This document shows positions 45,485 to 58,132 of a stretch of 64,000 nt of DNA, piece by piece. The DNA is from Streptomyces sp. M92 (lineage in GTDB: Bacteria > Actinomycetota > Actinomycetes > Streptomycetales > Streptomycetaceae). The stretch covers positions 5,146,001 through 5,210,000 of the forward strand of contig NZ_CP101137.1 of the NCBI RefSeq assembly GCF_028473745.1, written 5' to 3'. The notes under the pieces were generated by a model that ran no database searches, was not told where the DNA came from, and was given only the letters and a program-made list of their open reading frames with translations. A program made the position numbers and the translations under genes. Each line of letters begins with the position of its first letter. Within the stretch, counting starts at the first letter, position 1.

Positions 45485-47188
45485 ATGTCAGTGTCTGCAC
45501 CCCCCACCCCGCCCCGGACGCAGAAAGCCCGCCGCACCACCCCCGCCGTGCCCCTGCTGGTGCTGCCGGCGGCCGCCGCGGCCGCCGGCGCCGCCTGGGC
45601 GGCGGCCCCCGAGACCGCCCGGAGCTGGACCGCGACCCTCGCCGTGTCGTCCTGGCTGTGCGTCGCCGTGGCCGTCGTACTCGGCTCCCACCTGGTCGGT
45701 CGGGCGCGCCGGACCGCGTCCGACCGGAGGGCGGAGATCAGCGCCCTCAAGGCCCGCATCGCCCACGAGAGCGCGGGTTTCGCACACCTCGTCAACGTGG
45801 CCCTGCCGGGCATCGCCCAGCAGGTCCGCGACGGCGTGAGCGCCGAGGAGGCCGTGGCGAACACCGCGCCCGTCTCCGGCGCCCACCTGCGCCAGGTAGT
45901 GCAGAGTTTCGCCGCGCTGACCGAGGACGCGGCCCGGCAGTCCGCCGACGCCGACTCCCGCCACCGTCGGGCGGTTCAGGAGACGCGCCGGCTCACCGGG
46001 GAACTGGAACACCTCACGAGCAGCACCCTGCCCGCCGCGGTGGAGAAACTGCGCGACGGCACCTCGGCGGAGGTCGTCCTCGCCGAACTTCAGTGGCCGC
46101 GCGGCCCGCAGGCACGCGCCTGCGCCGAGCTCTTCGTCCGGGAACTGGCCCACAGCGAACGGCGTACCGCCGCGGCGCAGGCGGCCGCCGCCAAGTCCCT
46201 CAGCCGCGTCCAGGCCAAGGCCGTCGGCATGCTCGCCGACCTGCGCGAGATGCAGGACCGCCACGGCGAGGAAGTCCTCGGCGACCTGCTCCGCCTGGAC
46301 CACAGCACCTCGCAGCTCGGCCTCGTCACCGACCGCCTGGCCCTCCTGATGGGCGGACGCTCCAGCCGGGCCTGGAACAAGCCCATCGTGATGGAGAGCA
46401 TCCTGCGCGGCGCCGTCGGCCGGATCGCCGCCTACCGCCGGGTCCGCATGCACTGCTCCACCAGTGCCGCGATCTCCGGGTACGCGGCCGAGGGCGTGAT
46501 GCACCTCCTCGCCGAACTGATGGACAACGCCGCCAACTTCTCGCCGCCCATCGACGAGGTCCACGTCTACGTGGAGGAACGTACCGCCGGAATCGTCATC
46601 ACCATCGAGGACAGCGGACTGAAGATGGCCGACGCGGCCATGCGCCACGCCGAACAGGCGGTGTCGGGACGCATGAACGACCTGGCCCAGCTCCAGGGCA
46701 CGCGGCTCGGCCTCGCCGTGGTCGGACGGCTGGCCGCCAAGTACCGGATCGGCGTCAGCTACCGGCCCTCCTCGCGCGGCGGCACGGGCGTCGTCGTCCT
46801 GGTCCCGCCGCAACTGCTCGCCCAGCAGCGGGACCCCGGCCCGTACGCGACCCTCGGCCGTACGGCCACCGGTGCCCTCACCGTCCCCGGCCCCGCGCCG
46901 GCCCCCGCGGACCGGCGGCGCGTCCCGGACGTCCGCCCCGACCTCCCCGAACAGCCGCCGACGCCACCCCGCCCCGCACCCGCCACCGAGGGAGGGCTGC
47001 CGGTGCGTTCCCCGGGCCGCACGATGGCCGCGGCCGAACGCGAACGCCGGGAGCAGCACCGCCGGGCCCCGGACCGGGCGGCGACGGCGCCCCGGGACGC
47101 CGGCTCCAGTTTCGGCGCCTTCCACCGCGGCCGCCGCAGCGGGGCGGCCGGCGGGGCACCCGGGACCGAACCGCCCGCCCACGGGTAG
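45485..47188 (+). CDS. cvnA: conservon sensor ATPase CvnA (nitrate-sensor-like histidine kinase fold)
   Basis: 567 aa. Two N-terminal membrane helices (VPLLVLPAAAAAAGAAWAAA; LAVSSWLCVAVAVVLGSHLV), a long coiled-coil signalling region (about 80-270), and a C-terminal HATPase with N-box LLAELMDNAANFSPP and G-box IEDSGLKM. A Pro/Arg-rich tail of about 130 residues follows. Conservons are conserved four-gene sets of streptomycetes in which CvnA is thought to signal to the GTPase CvnD through CvnB and CvnC. There is no phosphoacceptor His in a clear H-box, as usual for CvnA. Confidence 0.92.
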   Translation: MSVSAPPTPPRTQKARRTTPAVPLLVLPAAAAAAGAAWAAAPETARSWTATLAVSSWLCVAVAVVLGSHLVGRARRTASDRRAEISALKARIAHESAGFAHLVNVALPGIAQQVRDGVSAEEAVANTAPVSGAHLRQVVQSFAALTEDAARQSADADSRHRRAVQETRRLTGELEHLTSSTLPAAVEKLRDGTSAEVVLAELQWPRGPQARACAELFVRELAHSERRTAAAQAAAAKSLSRVQAKAVGMLADLREMQDRHGEEVLGDLLRLDHSTSQLGLVTDRLALLMGGRSSRAWNKPIVMESILRGAVGRIAAYRRVRMHCSTSAAISGYAAEGVMHLLAELMDNAANFSPPIDEVHVYVEERTAGIVITIEDSGLKMADAAMRHAEQAVSGRMNDLAQLQGTRLGLAVVGRLAAKYRIGVSYRPSSRGGTGVVVLVPPQLLAQQRDPGPYATLGRTATGALTVPGPAPAPADRRRVPDVRPDLPEQPPTPPRPAPATEGGLPVRSPGRTMAAAERERREQHRRAPDRAATAPRDAGSSFGAFHRGRRSGAAGGAPGTEPPAHG

Positions 47189-47274
47189 CCACGCCGCACT
47201 CGCCCCCGCCGCACCCCACGGCGCGCATCGGCGCCCCTCGCCCTTCGAGCTCGTGAGATTGGAGGAACGGGCCG

Positions 47275-47733
47275 GTGACCGCAGAACCAGGAACCACCGT
47301 CCCCCCACCCACCATGCAGACCACCGACAACAGCCTCACCTGGCTCCTGCAGAACCTCCTCGACCGCACCCCCGGCACCCGGCACGCTCTCGTCCTCTCC
47401 CGCGACGGCCTCAAGCTGTGCTGGACCGAACACCTCACCCTCGACCGGGCCGACCAGCTCGCCGCGATCTGCTCCGGCATCCAGGCCCTCGCCCAGGGCG
47501 CTTCCGTCGAGTTCGGCGACGGAACCGGCGGCGTGCGGCACTCCATGACCGAGTTCCACGGGGGACTGCTGTTCATCGTGGAGGCCGGCGAGGGCGCGCA
47601 CCTGGCCGTCGTCGCGGTGGAGGACGCCGACCCTGGCGTGGTCGGCCACCAGATGACCGAGATGGTCGAGCAGATCGGTGAGCACCTGCGTGCCGAGCCG
47701 CGCCACGCCGTCCCCGGGAGCAGTACGCCGTGA
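47275..47733 (+). CDS. cvnB: conservon roadblock/LC7-domain protein CvnB
   Basis: 152 aa from GTG 47275, after GGAGGAAC. The roadblock/LC7 domain is complete (LTWLLQNLLDRTPGTRHALV; LVLSRDGLKL; AICSGIQALAQGASVEFG; LLFIVEAGEGAHLAVVA). These domains act as activators or scaffolds for small Ras-like GTPases, here CvnD. Its stop overlaps the cvnC start by 4 nt. Confidence 0.93.
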   Translation: MTAEPGTTVPPPTMQTTDNSLTWLLQNLLDRTPGTRHALVLSRDGLKLCWTEHLTLDRADQLAAICSGIQALAQGASVEFGDGTGGVRHSMTEFHGGLLFIVEAGEGAHLAVVAVEDADPGVVGHQMTEMVEQIGEHLRAEPRHAVPGSSTP

Positions 47734-48086
47734 CGCGCAGGCCCGTGGACACCGGCGAACCCGACCGGCTCTACACGGTCACCGGCGGACGCAGCCGCGC
47801 CGACGACTCGTTCGACCTGGTCACGCTGGTGGTCAGCGAATGCGAGCCGGCGGCCGGCATGCAATCGGAACACGTCCGCATCCTCGACCTGTGCCGGCAC
47901 CCGACGGCCGTGGTCGAACTGGCCGCCGAGCTGAGCCTGCCGATCACGGTGGTCCGCATCCTGCTCGGCGACCTGCTCGCCACCGGCCGGATCACCGCCC
48001 GCCATCCCCGCCTGGGGCAGTCCGCCGCGTCGCACCCCGATACCGCCCTTCTCCAGGAGGTGCTCCATGGGCTCCGCAACCTCTGA
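47730..48086 (+). CDS. cvnC: conservon DUF742 protein CvnC
   Basis: 118 aa, GTG 47730. The DUF742 pattern is intact: RLYTVTGGRSRADD..FDLVTLV near the start, and a winged-helix-like VVELAAELSLPITVVRILLGDLL. It is thought to be part of the conservon complex at the membrane. It overlaps cvnB by 4 nt and cvnD by 20 nt. Confidence 0.92.
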   Translation: MTRRPVDTGEPDRLYTVTGGRSRADDSFDLVTLVVSECEPAAGMQSEHVRILDLCRHPTAVVELAAELSLPITVVRILLGDLLATGRITARHPRLGQSAASHPDTALLQEVLHGLRNL

Positions 48087-48702
48087 CCCACCCTCACCGG
48101 CCGTCACGGCCTTGGGTCGCACGCCCCTGACCCACGCCGCGGAGACCGGCCTGAAGATCGTCGTCGTGGGCGGCTTCGGCGTCGGCAAGACCACCCTCGT
48201 CCGCTCCGTCAGCGAGATCCGCCCCCTCAACACCGAGGAGGTGATGACCCAGGCCGGCGTCGGCGTCGACGAGACCGGCGAGGTCACCGGCAAGACCACC
48301 ACGACCGTGGCCTTCGACTTCGGCCGGATCAGCCTCAACGACCGCATGGTGCTGTACCTGTTCGGGGCCCCCGGCCAGGAACGCTTCTGGTTCCTCTGGG
48401 ACCGGCTGTTCTCCGGCACCCTCGGCGCGGTCGTCCTCGTCGACACCCGGCGGATGGACGACTCCTGGTACGCGATAGACCGGCTGGAACACCACCGCAC
48501 CCCGTTCGTGGTGGCCGTCAACCGCTTCGACGACGACCGTGCCCGCCACTCCCTCGACGAGATCCGGCAGGCACTCGCCCTGTCCGAGGACGTACCGCTG
48601 ATCGACTGCGACGCACGGGTGCGGACCTCGGGCAAGCACGTACTGGTCACCCTCGTGGACCACCTCTACCGACTGGCACTGGCCCAGGAGAGCGCACCGT
48701 GA
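48067..48702 (+). CDS. cvnD: conservon small GTPase CvnD
   Basis: 211 aa. P-loop GGFGVGKTTLV near residue 36, the G3 region LFGAPGQERFWFLW near 97 with Gly-Ala-Pro instead of the usual DTPG, and NRFDDD as a modified NKxD near 155. This is the MglA/Ras-like form found in all conservons. Nucleotide state is expected to be set by CvnA-C. Its stop overlaps the P450 start by 4 nt, so the P450 belongs to the operon. Confidence 0.93.
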   Translation: MGSATSDPPSPAVTALGRTPLTHAAETGLKIVVVGGFGVGKTTLVRSVSEIRPLNTEEVMTQAGVGVDETGEVTGKTTTTVAFDFGRISLNDRMVLYLFGAPGQERFWFLWDRLFSGTLGAVVLVDTRRMDDSWYAIDRLEHHRTPFVVAVNRFDDDRARHSLDEIRQALALSEDVPLIDCDARVRTSGKHVLVTLVDHLYRLALAQESAP

Positions 48703-49961
48703 CCGACATCGACCCCGCTCCCGACCGCACCGCACCGCCCGCGTGCCCCGCGCACGACAAGGCCGTGGCGCTCGCCGGACTGGAGTACCAGCAGACACCG
48801 TCGGAGCTCTACCGAGGCCTGCGCGCCGAGCACGGCGCCGTCGCCCCGGTGCTCCTGGACGGTGGCGTCCCCGCCTGGCTGGTCCTCGGCTACACCGAGG
48901 TCAGCTATGTCACCAGCCACGACGAGCTGTTCGCCCGGGACTCGCGCCGCTGGAACCAGTGGGACGCCATCCCGCCCGACTGGCCGCTGCTGCCCTACGT
49001 CGGCCACCAGCCGTCCGTCCTGTTCACCGAGGGTGAGGAACACCGGCGGCGGGCGGGTGTGATCTCGCAGGCCCTCGCGGGCGTCGACCAGTTCGAACTG
49101 GCCCGCGACTGCCGCCAGCTCGCCGACGGACTCATCGCGTCCTTCGCGGGCAGCGGCCGGGCCGAGCTGATGCGGGACTACGCCCACGCCCTGCCGATGC
49201 GCGCCGCCGTGCGCATGTGCGGGATGCCGCACAGCGGCGACGAGACCCGGCAGCTCGTCGAAGACCTGCGCGTCTCCCTGGACGCGGCGGAGGGCGACGA
49301 CCCGGTCGCGGCGTACGCGCGGGTGGGCGAGCGCATCCACGGGCTGGTACGCCGGAAGCGGGAGCGGCCCGGCCCCGACGTCACCTCCCGGATGCTGACG
49401 CACCCGGCGGGGCTGACCGACGAGGAGACCGTCCAGGATCTGATCTCCGTCATCGCCGCCGCCCAGCAGCCCACCGCCAACTGGATCGGCAACACCCTCC
49501 GGCTGCTGCTCACCGACGAACGCTTCGCCCTGAACGTCTCGGGCGGCCGGCTCAGCGTCGGCGAGGCGCTGAACGAGGTGCTGTGGCTGGACACGCCGAC
49601 CCAGAACTTCATCGGCCGCTGGGCCGTGAACGACACCCAGCTCGGCGGCCGCCAGATCCGGGCCGGCGACTGCCTGGTACTGGGCCTGGCCGCGGCCAAC
49701 ACCGACCCGCAGCTGTGGCCCGAGGCGCACGTGGGAGCCGAGAACTCCGCGCACCTGTCCTTCAGCAACGGCGAGCACCGGTGCCCGTACCCGGCACCAC
49801 TGCTCGCCGACGTCATGGCCCGCACGGCGGTCGAGACGCTGCTGGAACGCCTCCCCGACCTGGTGCTCGCGGTGGACCCCGACGAGCTGACCTGGCGGCC
49901 CTCCGTCTGGATGCGCGGACTGACGGCCCTGCCGGCCCTCTTCACGCCCGTGGTGCCGTGA
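48699..49961 (+). CDS. CYP157-type cytochrome P450 without an ExxR motif
   Basis: 420 aa, GTG 48699. The heme loop is FSNGEHRCPYPAP with Cys362 as thiolate ligand. The K-helix, normally ExxR, reads E293-V-L-W296. CYP157 enzymes of S. coelicolor are the known P450s that lack this motif, so this is a family trait rather than damage. The I-helix segment IAAAQQPTANWIG lacks the acid-Thr pair as well. Monooxygenase activity is therefore doubtful; it may act with CYP154 or as a heme-based partner of the conservon. Translationally coupled to cvnD. Confidence 0.88.
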   Translation: MTDIDPAPDRTAPPACPAHDKAVALAGLEYQQTPSELYRGLRAEHGAVAPVLLDGGVPAWLVLGYTEVSYVTSHDELFARDSRRWNQWDAIPPDWPLLPYVGHQPSVLFTEGEEHRRRAGVISQALAGVDQFELARDCRQLADGLIASFAGSGRAELMRDYAHALPMRAAVRMCGMPHSGDETRQLVEDLRVSLDAAEGDDPVAAYARVGERIHGLVRRKRERPGPDVTSRMLTHPAGLTDEETVQDLISVIAAAQQPTANWIGNTLRLLLTDERFALNVSGGRLSVGEALNEVLWLDTPTQNFIGRWAVNDTQLGGRQIRAGDCLVLGLAAANTDPQLWPEAHVGAENSAHLSFSNGEHRCPYPAPLLADVMARTAVETLLERLPDLVLAVDPDELTWRPSVWMRGLTALPALFTPVVP

Positions 49962-51186
49962 CGGGCGAGGGCGGAGTGAACCGCACCGGCAGCGACTGCG
50001 GGCCCCGGGTGAAGACCCCCTGTTCCACCACGTCGAAGCCGTCGGCCGGCCGCAGGCCGGGCATGGCGTCCAGCAACTGGTCCACGCCGGTCTCGACCTC
50101 GGCCTTCGCCAGCAGCGCGCCGACGCAGAAGTGCCGTCCGAGCGCGAAGGCGAGATGGTCGGCGGCGGCCGAGAACGCGGTCGTCGTGGTGAGGTCGTCG
50201 CGGAGGATGTCGAAACGGTCCGGGTCGCGGTAGCGGTCCCCGTCCCGGTTGGCCGCGCCGATCAGACAGGTGACGGTGGCGCCCGCCGGTATGATGCCGC
50301 CGCTCAGCTCCACCTCGGTCGCGGTCTGCCGCATGATCATGTGGACGGGCGGTGTGTAGCGCAGTGTCTCGGCGAAGGCGCGGGGTATCAGGCTCCGGTC
50401 CTCGCGCACGGCCGCCAACTGCTCCGGGTGCGCCAGCAGGTTGGCGAAGATGCTCGCGATGGCCTTGTCGGTGGTCTCGCCGCCCGCTGCGAGCAGCAGA
50501 CTGCAGAACGCCTTGATGTCCTCGTCGCTCATCCGTACCCCGTCCACCTCCGCGGCGCACAGGGCGGACAGCAGGTCGTCGCCCGGGTTCTCGCGGCGCT
50601 CCCGGATGACCGGGAACATGTACTCGGCGAACTCCACCCGGGTGCGGGCGCCCGCCGCCGTCACCTCGGGGTCGCCGGAGAGGTTGCCGAGGAAGGCGAT
50701 GACGGACGTGTACCAGCCGTGGAAGCGGTCGTGGTCGGCCTTGTCCAGGCCCAGCATGTCCGCGATGACGTTGACGGGGAACCGGGTCGCGTAGTCGGCG
50801 ACCAGATCGGCCCGCCCGGTGTGCCGGAAGGCGTCGATGAGTTCGCGGCTGTTGCGCTCGATGACCGGCAGGAACTTCTCCCGCAGCTCGGCCCCGCGGA
50901 AGGCCGGGGCGACCAGCGCGCGCCGCACCGCGTGCTCGCGGCCGCTCAGCTGGAGGATCGTCCTGCCGTGCACGGGCTCGATCTGCCAGTCGTAGTTCTC
51001 CGTGGTGAACTGCCCGGCGCGGTCCTTGAAGACGCGTTCCACGTCCTCGTAGCGCGACACGATCCAGCTCTGGGTGGCCTCGTGCCGGATGAGCGGCGCG
51101 CTCTCGCGCATCACCCGGTAGGCCGGGTAGGGGTTCGCCGCGAACTCGGGGGAGAGGATGTCGGGGACCTGCTGCGCGGTGGACAT
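49942..51186 (-). CDS. CYP154-type cytochrome P450
   Basis: 414 aa. All standard motifs are present: I-helix AAGGETTDK near residue 240, K-helix ETLRYTPP near 280, and heme loop FALGRHFCVGALLAKAE near 352. It should be a working bacterial class I P450 needing ferredoxin and reductase from elsewhere. In S. coelicolor CYP154 and CYP157 genes often occur together in conservons. Here the two are convergent, overlapping by 20 bp at their 3' ends, so this gene has its own promoter near 51.2 kb. Confidence 0.92.
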   Translation of the reverse strand: MSTAQQVPDILSPEFAANPYPAYRVMRESAPLIRHEATQSWIVSRYEDVERVFKDRAGQFTTENYDWQIEPVHGRTILQLSGREHAVRRALVAPAFRGAELREKFLPVIERNSRELIDAFRHTGRADLVADYATRFPVNVIADMLGLDKADHDRFHGWYTSVIAFLGNLSGDPEVTAAGARTRVEFAEYMFPVIRERRENPGDDLLSALCAAEVDGVRMSDEDIKAFCSLLLAAGGETTDKAIASIFANLLAHPEQLAAVREDRSLIPRAFAETLRYTPPVHMIMRQTATEVELSGGIIPAGATVTCLIGAANRDGDRYRDPDRFDILRDDLTTTTAFSAAADHLAFALGRHFCVGALLAKAEVETGVDQLLDAMPGLRPADGFDVVEQGVFTRGPQSLPVRFTPPSPVTAPRA

Positions 51187-51321: not shown

Positions 51322-51761
51322 GACACGTCCGAGCGCGTGGCCGGCTACCAGACCAACGTCTTCCCGGGCCGGGCCTCCGCCCGCGTCGACGGCCGTTTCC
51401 CGCCCGGCCACGAGCAGGAGCTGGTCGACACCATCGACGCCCTGCTCCTGCCCTCGGTCTCCCGGGAGTGGGTCAACCACGACATCTGGAGACCACCTTC
51501 GACGGTCCGCTCGTCGACGCCCTGTGCGCGGCGGTGTGCGCCGAGGACCCCGACGTCCATCCCGTGCCGTACTGCAACCCGGGCGGCACCGATGCGAAGG
51601 CATTCACCAAGCTGGACATCCGCTGCTTCGGCTCCAAGGGCCTCAAGCTGCCGCACGACCTCGGCTACGGCCGCCTCTTCCACGGCGTCGACGAACGGGT
51701 GCCGCTGGAAGGACTGCGCTTCGGCGTGCGGGTGCTGACCCGGCTGCGGCACAGCTGCTGA
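51322..51761 (+). pseudogene. remnant of an M20-family metallopeptidase
   Basis: Two pieces of one M20 dimerisation/C-terminal region survive in different frames. First: VAGYQTNVFPGRASARVDGR and GHEQELVDTIDALL (about 51339-51480). Second, one frame over: LETTFDGPLVDALCAAV, GGTDAKAFTKLDIRCFG and LFHGVDERVPLEGLRFGV to a stop at 51761. The break falls near 51484-51492 and is explained by one missing base. The N-terminal catalytic half, with the metal ligands HTDVVP-type motif, is absent. A non-functional relic next to the P450 promoter. Confidence 0.8.
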
Positions 51762-53810: not shown

Positions 53811-53960
53811 GGAGAAAGGATGGAGCTCCGTCCACGGTTCCTTCAACTCGAACGCCGCTTGATCCGGTTTCGCCCTGTTCTCGGCGGGCGTCGGCCGCCG
53901 GCGACTCCTTTTGGGAGACTGTCGGGGTGTCATTCGCCAGGCGTTCAGGAGGACTTCGCC

Positions 53961-55037
53961 ATGACCGAGCAACCGCGCGACCGGGTCGCCCGGTACGGGC
54001 GCCGTTTCGAGCGGGTCTTCGCGGAGTACTTCGACACTCTCGGCACGACGCTGGACGCCCCGGCGTTCAGCCGCTTCACCCCGGACTGCCTCGCGCTGCT
54101 GCGTGACCTGTCCCTGCGGGGAGGCAAGCGGATGCGGGTCGCCCTGCTGCACGAGGCCGCACGACTGGTGCGTGAGGACGCACCGTCCGAGGCACTGGAC
54201 GCCGCCGCGCTGAGCATCGAGCTGCTGCAGACCCACGGCCTCGTGCACGACGACCTCATCGACGACAGCGCCACCCGCAGGGGCGGGCCCACCACCTACC
54301 ACGCCTACCTCGACAGGTTCCCCGGCGACCCGCGGGCCGCACTCGGACTGACCGTCCTCGCCGGCGACCTGGCGCTCGCCCTCTCCCTGCGGGTGCTGCT
54401 GGACGCCGGGCTCCCGGCCGAGCTGCGGCAGGCGATGACCGAGGTCCAGGTCCGGGCCGCGACCGACACCTTCGTCGGCCAGATCACCGACCTGGAACGG
54501 GACTTCACCCCCGGCACACCCGACGACGAGGTCCTCCACGACGTCGCCGACCACAAGTCGGCCCGCTACTCGGTCCTCGCGCCACTGCGCCTGGGGCTCC
54601 TCGCCGCCGGTGAGCAACCGGGCCCCCACGAGACGGAACTGCGCCGCTACGCACGGCTGGTCGGCATCTGCGGCCAGATGCGCGACGACTACCTCGACCT
54701 GTTCGGCGACGCCGCCGCGATGGGCAAACCGACGGGCGGCGACATCCGCGAGGGAAGGCGCAGCTACACGGTCGCCCGCCTGCTCGCCACCGTGGGCGGC
54801 TCGGAACGGGCGCTCGTGGAGCGGGCCCTCGGCGACCGGGACTGCGCCGAGGAGACCGTCGCCACGATCCGTGAGATCGGCGAGCGCCACGGCGTGGCCG
54901 CCCGCCTGCGGGCCGACATGCGGCGCCACGCCGAGCAGGCCGCGCAGGTGGCGGCCGGCTGGCGCCCGCGGTGGCGCGAGGACGCGGTCGCCTTTTTCGA
55001 GCTGCTGCCCCGGTGGAGCGTCGACCGCGACGCATGA
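53961..55037 (+). CDS. trans-isoprenyl diphosphate synthase 1
   Basis: 358 aa, AGGAGG before ATG 53961. The first Asp-rich motif is DDLIDD near residue 98, followed by SATRRGG; GKRM near 55 binds the diphosphate. The second Asp-rich motif is DDYLD in QMRDDYLDLFGD near 238. It condenses isopentenyl diphosphate onto an allylic primer to a C15, C20 or longer chain; length cannot be called safely. First gene of a four-gene rightward operon whose other members are a small protein, a second synthase and an Lcp-like oxygenase. Confidence 0.92.
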   Translation: MTEQPRDRVARYGRRFERVFAEYFDTLGTTLDAPAFSRFTPDCLALLRDLSLRGGKRMRVALLHEAARLVREDAPSEALDAAALSIELLQTHGLVHDDLIDDSATRRGGPTTYHAYLDRFPGDPRAALGLTVLAGDLALALSLRVLLDAGLPAELRQAMTEVQVRAATDTFVGQITDLERDFTPGTPDDEVLHDVADHKSARYSVLAPLRLGLLAAGEQPGPHETELRRYARLVGICGQMRDDYLDLFGDAAAMGKPTGGDIREGRRSYTVARLLATVGGSERALVERALGDRDCAEETVATIREIGERHGVAARLRADMRRHAEQAAQVAAGWRPRWREDAVAFFELLPRWSVDRDA

Positions 55038-55177
55038 CTCGCACCCCCTCCGACGCCTGTTCCCCATGTCGCTCAAAGGGGAAAACCGGATCTTCCGCCC
55101 GGACCGCCGGGTCATGCTCTGACCGGATGCGCCGCTGACCAGGCGCATCGGCCACGACGTGATCCCTGGGGGAGAAC

Positions 55178-55462
55178 ATGACGCACTCGGCGCGACGGGG
55201 CGCGGGAGGGGACGACCGGGCCGTGCTGCTGGCGGCCGGACTCGCCGACCTGGCGGTGAGCACACTCGGCTCGGCGGTCGGCGCGGTGCGCGGACTCCTG
55301 CGCCGCTCGGACACCGCCGACCTGGTCCGGGAAGCGGAGCACGACATCCGGTCCCGGGGCAGGCTGGCCCTGGACCGGTACGCGCACGTTCCGCCCGCCC
55401 ACCTGGAGGTGCTCGCACGGCACGTGCGGGCGCGCCGGGCGGCCGACGCCGGCGATGACTGA
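55178..55462 (+). CDS. small protein between the two prenyl synthases
   Basis: 94 aa, GGGGGAGA before ATG 55178. Predicted helical, Arg/Ala-rich, with a mildly hydrophobic middle (VLLAAGLADLAVSTLGSAVGAVRGLL) that could lie on a membrane or on a protein partner. No cysteine, no known motif. Its end overlaps the second synthase start by 8 nt, which implies a set ratio with that enzyme. A regulatory or non-catalytic partner subunit is possible. Confidence 0.65.
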   Translation: MTHSARRGAGGDDRAVLLAAGLADLAVSTLGSAVGAVRGLLRRSDTADLVREAEHDIRSRGRLALDRYAHVPPAHLEVLARHVRARRAADAGDD

Positions 55463-56513
55463 CCGCTGGGACCGGGACGCCTTCAAGGCGCGCGTCGACG
55501 GCGTGCTGCACGGCTTCCTGGACGAGGAGTCCCGCCACCTCCTGGCCATCGACGACACCCTCGCACCCGTGGCCGGGCAGCTCCGGAACGCGGCGGGGCA
55601 CGGCAAGCGGCTGCGCGCGGCCTTCTGCTACTGGGGCTGGCGGGCGGCCGGACAGCCCGACAGCGACGCCCTGCTGCGGGCGGCGGCCTCGATGGAACTG
55701 GTGCACGCCGCGGCGGTCGTCCACGACGACCTCATCGACGACAGCGCCCTGCGCCACGGCCTGCCCACCGCCCACGTCGCCCTGGAGACCGCACTGTCCC
55801 GGTCGGGCCGCCCACGGGTCCGCCCGGCCGCCCGGTCCCTGGCCATGCTGGTGGGCGATCACCTGATGGCCCTGGCGGGGGAGCTGTTCGCCACCAGCGG
55901 CCTGCCCGCCGCCTACCTCGCCAGGGCCCGCCCCCTGTGGGCCGCGCTCGCCCGTGAACTCGTCGCCGGGGAATGCCTGGAGATATTGCACACCGGCGGA
56001 CCACCGGACACCGGCACCTCACTGAAGGTGGTCCGGTACAAGACCGCCAAGTACACCGTCGAGCACCCCCTGCTCATCGGCGGCCTGCTCGCCGGCGCGG
56101 GCCCCGCGCTGCGGGACGCCTACTCCGCCTACGGCGTGCCCCTCGGGGAGGCGTTCCAGCTGCGCGACGACCTGCTCGGCCTCTTCGGCGACCCGCGGCA
56201 CACCGGCAAGGAGGAACTGGACGACGTCCGCGCCCACCGCCCCACCGCGCTGCTCGCCGAGACCTGGCGGGCGGCCGACGCCCGGCAGCGCGAGCGGCTG
56301 CGCGGCGTGCTGGGCCGCCGCGACCTCGACGACACGCACTTCGACGACGTACGCGACCTGATGCGGGAACTGGGGGCGCCGCAGCGGGTCGAGCAGATGA
56401 TCCACACCCGCGTGGAGCAGGCCACCCGCGCCCTGGACACCGCCGGCGCACCGCCGCACGCCCGCCGGGCGCTGCGCGACCTCGCCCGGCAGGCCACCGA
56501 CCGCGTCCACTGA
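55455..56513 (+). CDS. trans-isoprenyl diphosphate synthase 2 (GGPP synthase-like)
   Basis: 352 aa. GKRLR near residue 53, first Asp-rich motif DDLIDD near 93 (SALRHG follows) and second motif RDDLLGLFGDP near 236, with the DDxxG form usual in actinobacterial GGPP synthases. TGK after the motif binds diphosphate. It overlaps the small gene upstream and precedes the oxygenase by 13 bp. Two complete synthases in one operon suggest either sequential elongation or a heteromer. Confidence 0.92.
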   Translation: MTDRWDRDAFKARVDGVLHGFLDEESRHLLAIDDTLAPVAGQLRNAAGHGKRLRAAFCYWGWRAAGQPDSDALLRAAASMELVHAAAVVHDDLIDDSALRHGLPTAHVALETALSRSGRPRVRPAARSLAMLVGDHLMALAGELFATSGLPAAYLARARPLWAALARELVAGECLEILHTGGPPDTGTSLKVVRYKTAKYTVEHPLLIGGLLAGAGPALRDAYSAYGVPLGEAFQLRDDLLGLFGDPRHTGKEELDDVRAHRPTALLAETWRAADARQRERLRGVLGRRDLDDTHFDDVRDLMRELGAPQRVEQMIHTRVEQATRALDTAGAPPHARRALRDLARQATDRVH

Positions 56514-56526
56514 CGAGGAGACCGTG

Positions 56527-57687
56527 ATGACCTACACCGAGACGTCGATGGACGCCCTGCGCCGCGGCGGCGACGAACTGGCCGACGCCGTCGTCGCCAC
56601 TCTGTTCGAGCGCGGCGAGATCGGCAAGTTCAACTCCCTGATGCGCTACGTCTCCACCGCCGGCCAGGAACTGCCCGACGGCCTGCCCGGCGTGGCCCGC
56701 GAGTACCTGCGCACCACCGGCACCCCGCCGGACTGGGTGGACTGGGCCGAGATGGAGAAGGCCCGCCTCTTCTTCATCGACAACAACGTGCACATCTCCA
56801 CGGCACTGTCGTTCGCGTCCATGCCCGCCTGCTACGTCGTCCCGCACGTGGCCAGGCTGCTGTCGGCCACCCACGGACTGAGCTACCCCTCCAAACGCAT
56901 GGCGGAGACCGGGCAGTTCACCGTCCACCTGATGCAGCCCGACGCCTTCGAGGCCGGCGGCCGGTTCATTCCGGCGGCCCAGAAGGTACGCCTGCTGCAC
57001 GCCGCCGTCCGCCACCACCTGAAGCGGGAGGACCGCTGGGACACCGAGAACCTCGGCACCCCCATCTGCCAGGAGGACATGATCGGCGGGCAGATGTTCT
57101 TCTCCCTGCTCGTCCTGGACAGCCTGCACCGCCTCGGCATCCACATGTCCGCCGAAGGGGCGGACGCCTACTTCTACGCCTGGCGCGTGGTCGGCGCCGT
57201 CCTCGGCGTCGACCAGACGGCCGTACCCACGACGCTCGACGAGGGACGGCAGTTCCTCGACCTGTACATGCTGCGCCACATGGGCCCCTCCGAGGAGGGC
57301 GCCCACCTCACGCGACAGCTGATCGACCTGTACGAGGAGGTCGTCCCGGGCAGCCTCTTCGACCCGGTGGTGTCCGCACTGATCCGCTACCTCGTCGGCG
57401 ACACGTGCGCCGACTGGCTGGAGGTCCCCCGCACCGCCTGGGACACCGCCGTGAAGGCCGCACCGCACCTCCTCGGCGTGCTGGAGACGATCGAGGACCG
57501 CTCACCCTTCGGGGCGTGGGCGCTGGACCGGCTCGGCCACCTCACCACGGTCCTGGAACTGTCCACCCTCACCCGCGGGCGCGTCATGCACTACGCGATC
57601 CCGGAACAACTGAGGAAGGAGTACGGCGTCACGGGCGCGGCATCCCGCACCCGCCGCTGGACCCCGCCGCCCGCCACCGTCTCCTGA
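56527..57687 (+). CDS. DUF2236 heme oxygenase, Lcp-like (MpaB/latex-clearing family)
   Basis: 386 aa. The residues that place heme b in the latex-clearing protein Lcp of Streptomyces K30 are kept at the right spacing: R124-x3-T128, then R155, H158 and R162, equal to R164, T168, R195, H198 and R202 there, recalled from memory. The K167 position is Glu. Lcp enzymes cleave polyisoprene with O2 and are Tat-exported; this protein has no signal peptide, so it acts in the cytoplasm. Last gene of the prenyl synthase operon, so its likely substrate is the operon's own isoprenoid. ATG 56527, 7 nt after GGAG. Confidence 0.85.
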   Translation: MTYTETSMDALRRGGDELADAVVATLFERGEIGKFNSLMRYVSTAGQELPDGLPGVAREYLRTTGTPPDWVDWAEMEKARLFFIDNNVHISTALSFASMPACYVVPHVARLLSATHGLSYPSKRMAETGQFTVHLMQPDAFEAGGRFIPAAQKVRLLHAAVRHHLKREDRWDTENLGTPICQEDMIGGQMFFSLLVLDSLHRLGIHMSAEGADAYFYAWRVVGAVLGVDQTAVPTTLDEGRQFLDLYMLRHMGPSEEGAHLTRQLIDLYEEVVPGSLFDPVVSALIRYLVGDTCADWLEVPRTAWDTAVKAAPHLLGVLETIEDRSPFGAWALDRLGHLTTVLELSTLTRGRVMHYAIPEQLRKEYGVTGAASRTRRWTPPPATVS

Positions 57688-57709
57688 ACACCGGGCGCGC
57701 GGCCGGGCG

Positions 57710-58132
57710 TCAGGCGATGGACGCCGATATGACGGCCGACACGGCGACGTTGCAGGAGGCCGTCACCCACACCGCGGGGTGGGGCTCCGGCTCGACCAGC
57801 GTCGCGCCCAGCCGGCCCGGCGTGATCAGGTCCACCACCAGGAAGGCCACGGCCATCATCACGAGCCCCAGCAGCCCGAACGCCGCGGTCGACACCAGGC
57901 CCTTGCCGAAGTCCTCGTACGTCGTCCAGATGGAGGTGAAGACGATGCCGCCGATGCCGAGCAGCGCGGAGCTGAGCAGCACGGCCGCGTTGCGGTTGCG
58001 CTGCTCCCAGATCAGCCGGCCGAGCTTTCCCGGCGTCAGCACGTCGACCAGGACGATGCCGAGGACCAGGAGGACCAGGCCGAGACCGCCGTAGGCGGTG
58101 GCGCGGCCGAGTCCGTTGACGATGTCGCTCAT
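57710..58132 (-). CDS. DUF350 membrane protein
   Basis: 140 aa, four helices in two repeats of the DUF350 unit (GLGLVLLVLGIVLVDVLTPG; LLGLVMMAVAFLVVDLITPG). The repeated VD-LTPG motif marks the family. Unknown role; such proteins are found in stress and electron-transfer loci. It lies downstream of the DUF475 gene on the same strand. Confidence 0.85.
   Translation of the reverse strand: MSDIVNGLGRATAYGGLGLVLLVLGIVLVDVLTPGKLGRLIWEQRNRNAAVLLSSALLGIGGIVFTSIWTTYEDFGKGLVSTAAFGLLGLVMMAVAFLVVDLITPGRLGATLVEPEPHPAVWVTASCNVAVSAVISASIA

Follow-up and report, generated by a model that had tools for sequence, protein, structure and literature searches.

Streptomyces sp. M92 carries a compact three-gene cassette within a 64,000-nucleotide stretch of contig NZ_CP101137.1, the whole of which is referred to here as the window. 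The cassette consists of SP94, encoding a small conserved protein of no named family; PT2, encoding a trans-prenyl diphosphate synthase; and MPAB, encoding a predicted heme oxygenase of the MpaB/Lcp family (DUF2236). Upstream on the same strand lies PT1, a second trans-polyprenyl diphosphate synthase gene. The recurring unit is three genes, SP94-PT2-MPAB, and not four. With a probability of about 0.55, the cassette is a self-contained and probably horizontally moving unit that makes an isoprenoid and oxidizes it inside the cell.

An earlier sequence-only reading of this DNA had taken PT1, SP94, PT2, and MPAB for a single operon; when recurrence of the four-gene order was checked across genomes, the conserved order was SP94-PT2-MPAB, without PT1. 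Related loci were collected by MPAB, and the 80 fetched are the best 80 of 223 confirmed, hence biased toward near relatives. Tblastn was used to decide which of the four genes were present, and neighboring genes were compared solely as clusters of sequences called by a simple gene finder, without annotations. In 79 of the 80 fetched loci, MPAB comes with both SP94 and PT2 (in L104, the PT2 alignment falls into two pieces). Adding shorter loci gave a set of 101, in which a few genomes are duplicated and the window is counted twice; the three genes lie on one strand in all 101 loci where all three were detected, and SP94 overlaps PT2 by 8 or 11 bp in 95 of 101. Beyond the cassette, the neighborhoods are varied: no cluster recurs in more than 11 of the 80 loci, and several small groups of loci, the window's group among them, share a neighborhood.

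Class-wide draws of 394 genomes were searched with a profile of 61 SP94 sequences (E ≤ 1e-5) and with the MPAB protein (E ≤ 1e-170 for the cassette type). SP94 occurs in 20 genomes and cassette-type MPAB in 19, with both present in 19 and one SP94-only relic. The distance from SP94 to MPAB is 996-1270 bp in all 19 co-occurring genomes, with space for PT2 only. Flanks were fetched for 13 of 22 SP94 places, and 10 of these hold the full triad. Eight of the 19 genomes fall outside the window's family, and PT2 lies between SP94 and MPAB in all eight. Weak SP94 matches (E about 1e-3) in genome G277 and at a second place in G815 have neither PT2 nor MPAB beside them and were treated as chance. The cassette has been seen in four families, the window's own and three others, of which the family in the same order came from the first sample of relatives. 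In that sample, MPAB is matched at 1e-30 in 33 of 100 genomes (its own included), and the matches other than its own comprise 25 of cassette type, one C-terminal fragment, and six that are distant relatives only. PT2, at E ≤ 1e-75, occurs in five of the 396 genomes of a phylum-wide draw, its own included, all in the window's genus. Among 199 genomes of that genus the distribution is patchy, with the cassette oxygenase present in about a third (63/199). Among the papers listed by literature searches, no title, abstract opening, or excerpt described an SP94-PT2-MPAB cassette, which is weak evidence of absence.

Several observations suggest that the cassette probably moves horizontally. In genome G910 (locus L211), PT1 is followed about 55 bp on by the same DUF350 gene that adjoins the cassette in the window, with no cassette between them, and the G910 sequence runs collinear with the window at the right edge. 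The preferred reading of the window is that a cassette was acquired next to PT1, loss in G910 being the alternative. MPAB is also found on five plasmid records (74-82% identity), and all three plasmid records inspected (L111, L115, and L116) hold the triad. Two loci are probably decayed cassettes: L160 (genome G732), where SP94 stands with a broken PT2 of which a third remains and MPAB is missing, and G051:C1:6924421, the C-terminal MPAB fragment of the first sample.

MPAB matches the Pfam family PF09995 (MPAB_Lcp_cat) at 64.4 bits against a cut-off of 23, and a phmmer search of PDB sequences finds latex-clearing protein LcpK30 (5o1m, 5o1l), aligned over residues 16-302. As first proposed, the five residues R124, T128, R155, H158, and R162 align with R164, T168, R195, H198, and R202 of LcpK30, in which His198 is the proximal heme ligand (PMC5522427; this paper, PMC9134587, and PMC12724181 are cited here from excerpts). 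All five are present in 107 of 108 family rows, the remaining row being gapped there. The reported absence of an export signal also stands, in that a Tat-like motif occurs in the first 40 residues of none of the 108 rows, with starts picked to match that of the window. In the window itself, the ATG start gives 386 residues, and the in-frame stretch upstream has no start except a GTG one codon away. The best 19-residue hydropathy is at most 1.5 across the family, and MPAB has no strongly hydrophobic segment.

The description of this protein as Lcp-like holds for the domain and the heme-placing residues, but not for three residues of the distal side. Glu148, Lys167, and Thr230 of LcpK30 correspond to V108, E127, and G188 in the window protein. 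Across the 108 rows, the Glu148 position is V in 104, L in 2, and I in 1; the Lys167 position is E in 92, A in 10, N in 5, and a gap in 1; and the Thr230 position is Gly in 107. In LcpK30, Glu148 is the likely base, hydrogen-bonded by Thr230, and Lys167 is the distal ligand that closes the site (PMC5522427). The substitutions suggest an altered distal pocket rather than a dead enzyme, because the heme-placing residues do not vary and MPAB has the lowest dN/dS of the four genes. In six pairs per gene, dN/dS is 0.14-0.19 for MPAB, 0.19-0.28 for PT1, 0.29-0.35 for PT2, and 0.31-0.55 for SP94, and because of these values all four are taken to behave as real genes.

Ten cassette members, LcpK30, and 15 relatives were compared; one truncated relative was excluded, leaving a 25-row tree. 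Ten of the full-length relatives resemble secreted Lcps: each has E148, K167, and T230, and nine match the Tat pattern, the tenth (L189) having SRRGIL, which the pattern misses. E148 and K167 are also missing from relatives L180-L182, which have no Tat-like motif; T230 is kept in two of these three. L033, a divergent sequence without R164 and T168, has A and E at the Glu148 and Thr230 positions and was set apart. Cassette MPAB proteins form one clade (support 100/99) that groups with L180-L182 and L033; LcpK30 and the secreted forms fall elsewhere in the tree. As the tree program warns of long branches, reliance is placed only on the separation from secreted Lcps. By its alignment and tree position, MPAB is an unsignalled branch separate from the secreted Lcps, with distal residues of its own that set it apart from the rubber-degrading branch. 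The further claim, that an unsignalled DUF2236 protein is coupled to prenyl synthesis, is upheld in part: the two are tied across many genomes, but unsignalled DUF2236 proteins are not unique to the cassette (L180-L182). Loci L223 and L224 (genomes G737 and G464) encode another DUF2236 protein, 33-34% identical and without a Tat-like motif. Its gene directly follows DnaJ-like and MerR/HspR-type regulator genes, with a DnaK-like gene upstream in L223 (by eye), which suggests a heat-shock-linked cytoplasmic heme oxygenase.

Three known systems resemble MPAB. LcpK30 (5O1L/5O1M) shares the Pfam domain and the five residues, and differs in having the Tat signal and the three distal residues, in its tree position, and in that MPAB stands beside a prenyl synthase. 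The fungal MpaB and MpaB' proteins of mycophenolic acid synthesis share the PF09995 family, which names both, and likewise act inside the cell on a self-made prenyl chain (PMC9134587); MpaB is an endoplasmic reticulum (ER) enzyme that cleaves such a chain (PMC9134587, PMC12724181). In contrast to the ER-located MpaB', MPAB lacks a strongly hydrophobic segment, and the likeness is drawn through the shared Pfam family and not by direct alignment. Bacterial MpaB-type oxygenases and Nro1 of Gordonia belong to the MpaB family, and heme b and C=C cleavage are reported or proposed for them (PMC12724181). Nro1 differs in being membrane-bound and in having D57 and K71 at the places of LcpK30 E148 and K167, and the excerpts of PMC12724181 mention no prenyl synthase cassette for it or for the bacterial MpaB-type enzymes. 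Relatives of MPAB are named "oxygenase MpaB family protein" by NCBI. In 2024, Purwani et al., as cited in PMC12724181, reportedly described bacterial heme oxygenases of the MpaB type that cleave C=C bonds.

PT2 matches PF00348 at 132.7 bits against a cut-off of 27. The first aspartate motif (DDxxD) and the second DD motif are conserved in an alignment of 105 rows; 10 of these (e.g., L046, with RHS) escape a strict pattern for the first motif. The best PDB match for both PT2 and PT1 is 3lk5, a geranylgeranyl diphosphate (GGPP) synthase (1.1e-48 for PT2), which shares the aspartate motifs. Most PT2 members have RHG in place of RRG, and the window protein, itself of the RHG type, has RAHRPT where 3lk5 has REGKRT. 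The residues ahead of the first motif are small, which speaks against a pocket limited to C10-C15 products; by the chain-length rules known for such synthases, the product is estimated at C15-C25. The cargo polyprenyl transferase of family 2 encapsulins was considered and rejected: PT2 and PT1 match its model NF041169 at 197.5 and 128.2 bits, far below the cut-off of 450, and the shell gene is about 2 Mb from the cassette. That gene, the sole family 2B shell match above cut-off in the genome, lies with an adjacent prenyl synthase gene at 3.13 Mb (G000:C1:3128941-3131353).

In the proposed mechanism, PT2 would condense isopentenyl diphosphate (IPP) and an allylic diphosphate into a short all-trans chain, probably C15-C25. 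MPAB would then hold heme b through H158 and use O2 to break or oxygenate a C=C bond of the chain, yielding an oxo-isoprenoid. If MPAB cleaves as MpaB and Lcp do, the chemistry of such cleavage would make the product an aldehyde and/or a methyl ketone. SP94, which has a single hydrophobic helix and whose translation is coupled to that of PT2, may dock PT2 and/or MPAB at the membrane, or alternatively may pass the greasy substrate between them. The reaction assigned to MPAB is inferred from MpaB and Lcp chemistry (PMC9134587, PMC12724181). A more specific proposal is offered tentatively and is the less probable of the two: a dedicated prenyl synthase would feed a cytoplasmic heme dioxygenase via a new family of small membrane adaptors, in an unreported minimal actinobacterial pathway that moved as a three-gene unit and gives a cleaved, oxidized isoprenoid (a signal, volatile, or lipid) with no terpene cyclase. 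If the cassette works in this manner, it would be a bacterial counterpart of the fungal MpaB step, small enough for rebuilding in the test tube. The mechanism proposed for Lcp would have to be revised should this branch turn out to cleave C=C bonds in the absence of Glu148 and Lys167.

A number of points weigh against this scheme. MPAB lacks Glu148 and the distal Lys167, so cleavage cannot be assumed. Its AlphaFold model (mean pLDDT 44.8) is too poor to check the heme site, likely because the alignment is shallow (41 rows, 83-97% identical to the first), and the helical SP94 model (pLDDT 67.9, pTM 0.30) is too weak to check the fold. No assigned product was found for the cassette, and no neighboring cluster travels with it; later steps would therefore need host enzymes. 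L095 is the exception among the fetched loci, having MPAB without SP94 or PT2. As for movement, G910 is a fragmented assembly, loss of the cassette there is possible, and the horizontal reading rests on patchiness, varied neighborhoods, plasmids, and one empty site, with no tree comparison.

The role of SP94 admits an alternative that is otherwise compatible with the proposed scheme. Two-component heptaprenyl and hexaprenyl synthases have a regulatory small subunit, and SP94 could be such a subunit of PT2 rather than a membrane adaptor; this is unlikely. The overlap with PT2 in 95 of 101 loci and the helical model, of low confidence, are in its favor, as is the name "polyprenyl synthetase" given to SP94 by NCBI on plasmids NZ_CP109497 (L115) and NZ_CP108162 (L116). 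Searches of Pfam, NCBIfam, and PDB, however, matched SP94 to no component of a prenyl synthase, and its identity as a known two-component subunit was rejected for want of a sequence match. The best 19-residue hydropathy (median 1.81) exceeds 1.6 in 91 of 101 rows, and such a hydrophobic helix also speaks against the subunit. No sequence support for the NCBI label was found, and it is apparently a misannotation. SP94 defines a small protein family whose invariant residues, in an alignment of 61 sequences, include R43, R60, G61, R62, R67, L76, E77, L79, and A80. No Pfam family matches the window protein, and a Pfam scan of the 61 members gave just two single-member matches (0.03 and 0.09).

Two further alternatives, each rather doubtful, concern what MPAB does to the chain. 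It may oxygenate without cutting, giving an epoxide, alcohol, or ketone, as the hydrophobic residues at the Glu148 position, E, A, or N at the Lys167 position, and Gly at the Thr230 position would allow. Neither Glu148 nor Lys167 is strictly needed in LcpK30, however: substitution of Glu148 leaves 2-20% activity, Glu148Ala and Lys167Ala retain about 20% with products unchanged, and Lys167 is conserved in just 59% of 495 Lcp sequences (PMC5522427). Alternatively, the chain may first be attached to a host molecule (a quinone, lipid carrier, or metabolite) and then be trimmed by MPAB, much as fungal MpaB, which acts on an aromatic that already carries a prenyl group, trims the farnesyl chain of a phthalide (PMC9134587, PMC12724181). 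That no other cluster recurs with the cassette would fit an acceptor that is a common host molecule; the lack of a recurrent prenyltransferase neighbor counts against such attachment, if weakly, since the neighbors were unannotated sequence clusters.

PT1 is a separate resident gene, independent of the cassette. It lies within the fetched stretch in 11 of the 80 relatives (L035-L045) and is missing from the stretch in the other 69. Among the 199 genomes of the genus, PT1 occurs in 33 and both PT1 and cassette MPAB in 13, against 10.4 expected (Fisher p 0.20); these results do not bear out the four-gene operon. In G288 and G223 both are present about 90-120 kb apart. Genomes G910 and G947 carry PT1 at this locus, and neither is in the set of genomes where cassette MPAB was matched. 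In L216 (5077-7275) and L218 (5526-7720), PT1 directly follows another synthase gene whose product is 39-40% identical to PT2, and neither SP94 nor MPAB is matched within the 14 kb fetched. That PT1-SP94-PT2-MPAB make one pathway, with two sequential or heterodimeric synthases, is highly improbable, since the close, same-strand PT1 of the window and of 10 of the 11 PT1-bearing relatives (not L037, where it is 5.3 kb away) and the PT2-like partners in L216 and L218 are set against its absence from most stretches, its chance-level co-occurrence, and the cassette-free loci of G910 and G947.

Table 1. Features of the cassette locus, in coordinates of the 64,000-nucleotide window (Streptomyces sp. 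M92, NZ_CP101137.1; plus strand unless stated)
Feature	Position	Strand	Basis and remarks
PT1, trans-polyprenyl diphosphate synthase, 358 aa	53961..55037	+	PF00348, 1.3e-42; resident gene, outside the conserved cassette
PT1-cassette spacer, 140 bp	55038..55177	+	Sequence; left edge of the segment absent at the G910 empty site
SP94, unnamed small conserved protein family, 94 aa	55178..55462	+	ORF; alignment of 61; first helix hydrophobic
PT2, cassette trans-prenyl diphosphate synthase, 352 aa	55455..56513	+	PF00348, 1.7e-38; closest PDB 3lk5
MPAB, unsignalled MpaB/Lcp-family heme oxygenase (predicted), 386 aa	56527..57687	+	PF09995, 2.2e-17; LcpK30, 2.6e-32
H158 codon, predicted proximal heme ligand (LcpK30 His198)	56998..57000	+	Alignment; His198 role from excerpts of PMC5522427
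Cassette right edge	57688..57709	.	Minus-strand DUF350 gene beyond; collinear with the G910 empty site
DUF350 gene	57710-58132	-	Pfam scan

Open reading frames (ORFs) confirm the head-to-tail arrangement of two prenyl synthases, a 94-residue protein, and a DUF2236 protein, and the intergenic distances of 140, -8, and 13 bp are reproduced with the starts chosen. The longest reading of PT1 begins at 53820 and gives 405 residues with the same end. A scan for promoters and terminators gave no promoter-like site and a single terminator-like one, which lies at 53889, upstream of PT1 (0.5 expected). Folding of the PT1-SP94 spacer is no stronger than that of shuffled sequences (z -1.02). No terpene cyclase is adjacent, as judged from listed neighbors only, the window genes not all having been scanned for cyclases.

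Further upstream in the window, positions 45548-51186 hold genes for a HATPase, a Roadblock/LC7 protein, a DUF742 protein, a small GTP-binding protein, and a P450, a set that we take to be conservon-like, together with a second P450 gene on the opposite strand. Positions 51468-51761 encode a 97-residue remnant of an M20-type peptidase (a weak Pfam match, 23 bits against a cut-off of 24.6), and a gene of about 445 residues, probably for the same peptidase, occurs in that neighborhood in eight close relatives.

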